Positions 20,974-22,542 of a stretch of 34,160 nucleotides of DNA are shown here, piece after piece (position 1 is the stretch's first letter; each line of letters begins with the position of its first letter). The notes below the pieces were generated by a model. That model had not been told where the DNA came from. It worked only from the letters and a program-made list of their open reading frames with translations, and did not search any database. A program made the position numbers and the translations under genes. Origin of the DNA: Nevskia sp. (GTDB lineage: Bacteria > Pseudomonadota > Gammaproteobacteria > Nevskiales > Nevskiaceae); the NCBI RefSeq assembly GCF_023266035.1, contig NZ_JAHFRY010000032.1, forward strand, positions 1 through 34,160. The letters are read 5' to 3'.

Positions 20974-22542
20974 GTGCTGATGCTCCGCGTAATGATCGAT
21001 CGTTCTTCCCGCGGCCCGTCCGCAACGCGCGCACTGCGCATTATCTGCCTCGCCTCACTGGCGGCCCTCGCGACTGGCTGCGCCTCGAAAGGCGAAAAAG
21101 CCGATCGCCCGGACAATCCGTTCCGGCCTGGCTCGGAAGTCAGCCCCGCCGGCGCCACGCCGCAGACCGAAGAGGCGCTGAAAGCCGAAGCGGCGCTGTT
21201 CTACCGGCGCGCGCATGAAGCGATGGTGGCCTCCGATTACGAGACCGCAACCACCCGCTACACGCAGCTGATTGCCCGCTACCCGTTCACCGAGTATTCG
21301 ACTCAGGCCGAGCTCGAGAAGATCTTCGTCCAGTATCGCAGCTTCGCGCCGGACGAAGCGCTGCTCGCCGCGGATCGCTTCATCCGCGAACATCCGCACC
21401 ACGTCCACGCCGATTACGTCCAGTACTTGAAGGGTCTGATCAATTCGAGCCGCACGCAGGCGCTCAGCGATTACCTGCCGATCGACTCGAGCAAGAAGGA
21501 CGTCACCGGCGAACGCCGCGCCTATGACGATTTCGCCGTCTTGCTGCAGCGCTATCCCAGCAGCCCCTACGCTGGTGATGCCCGCAAGCGGATGATCTAT
21601 CTGCGCAACCGGGTGGCCGCGCATGAGCTGTCGATCGTCCGCTACTACGTCAAGCGCCAGGCTTGGGTGGCGGTATCGAAGCGCGCCGAGAATCTGATTG
21701 CCGAATACCCAGGCGCCCCCGCGACAGTCGAAGCGCTGAAGCTGCTGAAGCTGAGCTATGAAAAACTGGGCCTGACGCCACAAGTGGCCGATCTCGACCT
21801 GCTGATCGCCAGCAATGCCGAGTCGATCGCCCAGGCCAGCGCGCCGCCGCCGAAGCCGGGTCCGCGTACCGTCATCGTCCTGCCTACCGATCAGCCGTCG
21901 GCAGCGCCAGCCGCAGTGCAGCCGGACGCGGCTGCAAGCCCGGCGGCACTGAGCAGCGAAGCTCCAAAAGGTCTTTTCGAAAGAATCGGCGGCTACTTCG
22001 AATCGCTGAACAAGACCTACACGATCGACAGCAAGGAGGCGAAACCGGCCGATGCAGCAGCCGCGGGAACTGCCACAGCGCCTGCAGTGGGCACTCGGGC
22101 TGAGCCCGCCAACCCGTCGTCGGCCAATCAGCCGGATGCCGCGTCGCTGACCACTGGCCCTTACGTGGGCGAACCAGCGGTCGTCAATCTGCCACCTTTG
22201 TTCAGCGATGGAGACGCCGCCAAGCCGGCCGCCCAACCCGCCACCGAGACGGCGCCGAAGGTCGAGGCTGCTGCGCCTGCAGCTGCACCGGCGCCCGAGG
22301 CGCAGAAGGAAAAAGGCGGTCTGTTCGACTTCCTGAACAAGACCTACACGATCGGCGGCAGCAAGACCGGTGAAGCGGCGGCGAAGGATGCGCCGGCAAC
22401 CACGGGTGAAGCGGCGCCCAGCGACAGCAAGACCCGGCTGAAGATGGATTACGAAGCGCCAGACGGCAGCAGCCAGCCGGTTACGGTCAACGGCAACACG
22501 ACGACCGAGCCGCAATCTGCCGCCCCTCCAGCCACGCCTTAA
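20974..22542 (+). CDS. bamD: Outer-membrane assembly factor BamD with long C-terminal extension
   Basis: Lipobox LATGCASK; TPR region ALFYRRAHEAMVASDYETATTRYTQLIARYPFTEYSTQAELEKIFVQYRSFAPDEALLAADRFIREHPHHVHADYVQYLKGL is BamD; ~250 further Ala/Pro-rich residues. Start could be 20974, 20980 or 20992. Confidence 0.92.
   Translation: MLMLRVMIDRSSRGPSATRALRIICLASLAALATGCASKGEKADRPDNPFRPGSEVSPAGATPQTEEALKAEAALFYRRAHEAMVASDYETATTRYTQLIARYPFTEYSTQAELEKIFVQYRSFAPDEALLAADRFIREHPHHVHADYVQYLKGLINSSRTQALSDYLPIDSSKKDVTGERRAYDDFAVLLQRYPSSPYAGDARKRMIYLRNRVAAHELSIVRYYVKRQAWVAVSKRAENLIAEYPGAPATVEALKLLKLSYEKLGLTPQVADLDLLIASNAESIAQASAPPPKPGPRTVIVLPTDQPSAAPAAVQPDAAASPAALSSEAPKGLFERIGGYFESLNKTYTIDSKEAKPADAAAAGTATAPAVGTRAEPANPSSANQPDAASLTTGPYVGEPAVVNLPPLFSDGDAAKPAAQPATETAPKVEAAAPAAAPAPEAQKEKGGLFDFLNKTYTIGGSKTGEAAAKDAPATTGEAAPSDSKTRLKMDYEAPDGSSQPVTVNGNTTTEPQSAAPPATP
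22006..22354 (+). repeat. Two in-frame copies of a 22-nt exact repeat (CTGAACAAGACCTACACGATCG) at 22006-22027 and 22333-22354 inside bamD
   Basis: Read directly; offset 327 nt (109 codons); both encode LNKTYTI(D/G). Confidence 0.95.

Follow-up and report, generated by a model that had tools for sequence, protein, structure and literature searches.

BamD is an essential subunit of BAM, the machinery by which bacteria assemble their outer membrane. The window analysed here, a 34,160-nucleotide stretch of a Nevskia contig (NZ_JAHFRY010000032.1), carries bamD on its forward strand at positions 20974 to 22542. The frame comprises 522 codons from a GTG start, with in-frame ATG codons at 20980 and 20992 as alternatives, and its translation is exactly the one from which an earlier sequence-only reading had recognised a BamD of 522 residues, against 245 in E. 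coli. The product matched PF13525 (YfiO) in Pfam (E = 5.1e-51; 173.8 bits against a cutoff of 25) and BamD chains in the PDB (best E = 1e-44), and it is the one full-length copy in the genome, the other PF13525 match being weak (E = 1.4e-12) and on a separate contig. Upstream lie rluD and pgeF, divergently oriented on the opposite strand, and downstream lies a gene for NAD synthase; bamD of E. coli also sits beside rluD and pgeF. We conclude from gene context and the single strong match that the frame encodes a BamD orthologue and not YbgF/CpoB. An antisense open frame of 486 codons opposite bamD (positions 21055 to 22515, reverse strand) probably arises from the GC-rich codon usage of the gene.

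The protein begins with a signal peptide and a lipobox recognised from sequence, LATG-C36 (positions 20974 to 21081, forward strand), in which G35 and C36 were unchanged across seven aligned BamDs, and the lipobox indicates an outer-membrane lipoprotein. The TPR (YfiO) domain follows at residues 73 to 269 (positions 21190 to 21780, forward strand) and was supported by Pfam, AlphaFold and Foldseek: the core, which ends near residue 283, was predicted mostly at a pLDDT of 80 to 95, and its Foldseek matches were solved BamD structures. The remainder, residues 286 to 522 (positions 21829 to 22539, forward strand), is an Ala/Pro-rich extension predicted to be disordered; the long tail of about 250 residues seen by the sequence-only reading is thus present and measures about 237. 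When the full protein was modelled, residues 297 to 449 and 454 to 522 fell below a pLDDT of 50, with tail values of approximately 27 to 44 in a run on a shallow seven-sequence alignment; the model was uninformative as to where the tail lies. We conclude that the protein is an ordinary BamD lipoprotein with a prolonged C terminus.

Both of the similar modules previously proposed for the tail are present, although the second copy is less complete than the first. Module 1, GLFERIGGYFESLNKTYTI (residues 333 to 351; positions 21970 to 22026, forward strand), consists of an amphipathic helix, GLFERIGGYFESLN, followed by KTYTI; AlphaFold predicted a helix at residues 335 to 345 with low confidence, and the hydrophobic moment of the tail peaks there (0.57). 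Module 2, EKGGLFDFLNKTYTIGG (residues 446 to 462; positions 22309 to 22359, forward strand), has neither the Arg/Lys nor the central part of the helix, and a single helical turn was predicted at residues 452 to 455, again with low confidence. Twenty-two identical nucleotides, ctgaacaagacctacacgatcg, are common to the two copies, and when the tail was matched to itself without gaps, 1 of 300 composition-preserving shuffles reached its best score. A profile search for the module, as the sequence-only reading had suggested, was run on the whole genome and on relatives. Against the 4.5-Mb genome in six frames, the module 1 profile recovered module 1 (E = 2e-15) and module 2 (E = 0.0017) and gave no further match outside BamD. 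We conclude that the duplication is not due to chance, since the profile found only module 2 elsewhere and shuffled tails rarely reached the self-match.

The earlier inventory of the tail was incomplete, as two other blocks are also conserved. The proximal block, KPGPR(TVIVLPT), spans residues 294 to 305 (positions 21853 to 21888, forward strand), and its KPGPR portion (residues 294 to 298) was identical in nine of nine aligned Nevskia-type genomes. The middle block, ASLTTGPYVGEPAVVNLPPLF (residues 390 to 410; positions 22141 to 22203, forward strand), was recognised by its conservation in the same nine genomes. A weaker motif near the C terminus, TRLKMDYEAPDG (residues 487 to 498; positions 22432 to 22467, forward strand), with the string RLKMDYEAPDG in the window, was present in the three closest genomes and missing from the other six of the clade. 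Strings resembling L.I.YE.P.D were seen in other genera of the family (LEIFYESPDD, FRIYMEPYDD and LRIYMESYDD).

Conservation was measured over the nine Nevskia-type genomes that carry both modules, and dN/dS over the four closest. The TPR core had a mean identity of 80%; module 1 reached 65%, and module 2, at 85%, surpassed the core. The linkers overall ranged from 34 to 52%, and the middle block (ASLTTGPYxGEPxVVxxPPxF) reached 70% compared to 34 to 35% in the linkers adjoining it. The dN/dS ratio was 0.10 for the core, 0.11 for module 1, 0.08 for module 2 and 0.18 for the middle block, compared to 0.22 to 0.44 for the four linkers, and none of 1,000 column permutations reached the contrast between modules and linkers. 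Because modules and core have approximately equal rates of synonymous change, the constraint is on the protein. In eight of the nine genomes both copies have the same residue at the Thr/Ser of LNK[TS]Y, a hint that they change in concert or are under matched selection. The sequence-only reading had held that a lack of conservation in orthologues, or neutral drift of the tail, would count against it, and neither was found for the modules. We conclude that the modules are under purifying selection like that on the TPR core, whereas the linkers drift.

BamD tails were compared across every one of the 58 genomes of the family, most other families of the order, about 65 further BamDs from the class and 33 BamDs that belong to different classes of the phylum, the last being mostly alphaproteobacteria if the GTDB division of the phylum is followed. 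Tails in the family had a median length of 92.5 residues and a maximum of 362, and the median was 51.5 residues in the rest of the order and 19 in the sampled other families of the class. LNKTYTI, after which the module had been named, was limited to nine genomes of one Nevskia-type clade, and this restriction rules it out as the ancestral unit. In sister genera KTYTI is replaced by other strand-like strings (TLVLPS, EVVIPT and TYVIGG), and the helix ahead of it is kept (GFFSRVAGLFSGLD, GVFSRIAGAFSFLD, GFMSRFTHAFDFFD and GFFERLGNWFSFG), also in forms with Trp such as PSWLDRLLRRD. In this comparison LNKTYTI is the part specific to the clade, and the Phe/Trp-Arg helix preceding it, G-[FW]-[FLI]-x-[RK]-hydrophobic, is older and more widespread.

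In a maximum-likelihood tree of BamD cores, carriers of the motif turned up on branches within the family both deep and shallow. This scatter over the tree is most simply explained if the motif is ancestral and was later lost in some lineages and duplicated separately in others. Tails with two or three copies arise separately in sister Nevskia genomes, in genus g11, in the other-class BamD L214 and in PDB chain 9pxg_D. Short motif-free tails were found in several genera, including g5 and much of g9, and the motif is therefore not indispensable. Weak module-like matches outside BamD in genus g6 were rejected, as one fell in an unrelated frame and the other in a response regulator, at GAFDFLQKPY in its receiver. 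Other tails have features of their own. The tail of L214 (genome G486) is approximately 230 residues long and contains three related modules (GVGSRIAGLVPFVG, KRGLSRLVPFLG and KSLSRFVPFIG), apparently an independent expansion. Three BamDs of a BamC-less family of the class (L233, L234 and L235; family f15) share a different conserved motif, YPW[AM]IRKLNPFAGE, and those of family f3 of the order (L117 to L125) lack the module and have SYPNY[VIL]LHRDEFYRQ[RQ]AG.

A de novo motif search was conducted on only the 26 longer other-class tails, and it returned GSWISR[IF]F with a log-likelihood of 332, compared to 185 to 199 in five shuffled sets. At p <= 0.02 the motif was found in 22 of the 58 family tails, with 1.2 expected from shuffles that ignore relatedness, and in 13 of 22 family representatives; its summed score over the family lay 12.6 standard deviations above the shuffles. 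All four tails of gammaproteobacterial family f162 also carried it, but among other families of the order 1 of 24 tails matched, with 0.5 expected, which is chance level. A core element, NYPDSxWY, served as a negative control and matched 2 of the 58 family tails. A hand-made profile agreed with the de novo result, although its register was chosen after the family tails had been seen and that of the de novo motif was not. Shuffling inside hydrophobic blocks indicated that the order of residues, beyond their clustering, carries the signal. The module 1 of the window itself was marginal against the hand-made other-class profile (p = 0.06), the significant matches being relatives, and L011, a 92%-identical relative, matched the de novo motif at p = 0.02. 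When a module 1 HMM was searched against relatives, the top matches were correct but scores overlapped those of shuffled tails, and per-tail shuffles were therefore used; a regular-expression enrichment designed after the sequences had been seen is given low weight. Sequence statistics thus support a shared motif of the form [GS]-[FW]-[FILW]-x-[RK]-hydrophobic-hydrophobic located after the TPR domain. The families closest to this one within the order lack the motif, which leaves room for convergence of short hydrophobic tail motifs. We conclude that what is duplicated here is probably a Nevskia version of a C-terminal BamD motif that is widespread and has been duplicated independently as well as lost.

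The BamD of E. coli (YfiO; PDB 5d0o, 3tgo and 2yhc) is the same YfiO TPR lipoprotein, about 35% identical over approximately 210 residues, but it stops at the last TPR helix and has neither tail nor motif. The BamD of PDB 9pxg/9pxi, whose length of 341 residues we take to fit Pseudomonas aeruginosa, has a C-terminal extension of about 110 residues, and the tail of L132 (family f162) matched chain 9pxg_D. Like the window's tail, that of 9pxg_D holds two copies of the motif, here containing Trp (RSWLAKATLGLIE and RSWWSYMTFGLFD), but it is shorter and lacks LNKTYTI. The other-class tails resemble those of the family in carrying a GSWISRxF-like motif, which in them is terminal, usually single, basic and rich in Trp. 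Long BamD tails are thus known already, in passing, from the 9pxg chain and from alphaproteobacteria: excerpts of Anwari et al. 2012 (PMC3359395) report a 60-residue C-terminal extension in the BamD of Caulobacter that was left out of the alignment, and in those excerpts no motif in it is described. The same excerpts describe a motif in the disordered N terminus of BamC/BamF that binds BamD; it is likewise short and conserved, and lies in a disordered stretch of a BAM lipoprotein, but it belongs to another protein and another location, and the family gave no BamC match. No description of a conserved motif at the C terminus of BamD was found in the open-licence literature searched.

The sequence-only reading had also proposed modules on a flexible tether, and this is supported by the sequence, by the selection on the modules, by their recurrence in relatives and by the AlphaFold model, in which the tail has low confidence and is helical at the modules alone. 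As modelled, the anatomy of a disordered tail with helix at the modules is that of a tether with motifs that fold upon binding. The most likely function, to which we assign a probability of about one-half, is docking within BAM, with the tail serving as a tethered peptide that binds another part of the machinery. The disordered tether would extend the BamD C terminus and display the short motifs, and the amphipathic helix would fold upon binding and dock the tail onto a periplasmic BAM surface; the likeliest candidates are a BamA POTRA domain, a further BAM subunit or a substrate-delivering chaperone. In E. coli, BamD sits on POTRA-5 and POTRA-2 and forms a periplasmic ring (PMC13067283), so the tail could reach the POTRA domains of BamA, BamE or an incoming chaperone; BamE is present in the Nevskia genome. 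In the Nevskia clade, a long tail bearing the motif twice, with KTYTI added as a strand-like extension, may provide a bivalent or longer-reaching contact through two copies on a tether of approximately 240 residues. Nothing in the analysis points to the peptidoglycan contact that had been suggested alongside, and an OMP or BAM partner stays a candidate.

The main rival to docking within BAM is membrane binding, in which the module would be an amphipathic helix keeping the tail, and with it the BAM ring, at the inner leaflet of the outer membrane. The peak in hydrophobic moment at module 1 fits such a helix, as do the other-class versions, which are rich in Trp and carry a net charge of +1 to +3 as interfacial helices would. 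The Nevskiaceae versions, however, carry a net charge of -2 to +1, and selection has kept specific residues (LN and Y) beyond mere amphipathicity; we regard membrane binding as unlikely. Less likely still is that the module mimics an OMP beta-signal and docks in cis in the substrate site of BamD as a gate or pseudosubstrate. BamD binds OMP signals (PMC10945584), module 2 (EKGGLFDF) fits the pattern polar-x-G-x-x-aromatic-x-hydrophobic, and 13 fitting strings were found in family tails with 1.6 expected, genera g3 and g7 among their sources. Seven of the 13 nonetheless come from one clade, the internal-signal pattern was not enriched (17 strings with 24.7 expected), AlphaFold did not confidently place the tail, and neither module 1 nor most genera fit the pattern; mimicry by both modules, or of the internal signal, was not supported.

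Replacement of BamC is another explanation, in which the tail would cover the same BamD surface in cis. PF06804 (BamC) was found in 0 of 58 family genomes compared to 237 of 369 in the class sample, and alphaproteobacteria, in which BamD is extended at its C terminus, are reported to lack BamC (PMC3359395). Tail presence does not track BamC absence, however: among other gammaproteobacterial genomes without an above-cutoff BamC match, 17 of 20 tails were short and motif-free, family f162 carries BamC and the motif together, and other tested families of the order have neither. Replacement therefore does not explain the pattern, and we consider it improbable in simple form. The least probable reading is that the tail is a functionless, neutral low-complexity extension. 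Linkers drift and differ in length, and may well be neutral spacers, and several relatives are short-tailed; purifying selection on the modules nevertheless equals that on the TPR core, and the modules recur over genera and classes.

Docking within BAM stays the preferred reading of the tail. Knowledge of BamD comes mostly from E. coli, whose BamD is tail-free, and a conserved motif on a flexible BamD tail, which several lineages have duplicated independently, points to a contact within BAM that would be invisible there. The motif is short enough for peptide testing. A broader proposal, which we hold more tentatively, is that an ancient BamD C-terminal motif, present in most sampled other-class genomes, pseudomonad-like bacteria and Nevskiaceae and not in E. 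coli, binds a fixed site on BAM. If so, structures based on E. coli would miss a standard BAM contact, and the Nevskia clade would have made a bivalent tether from it.
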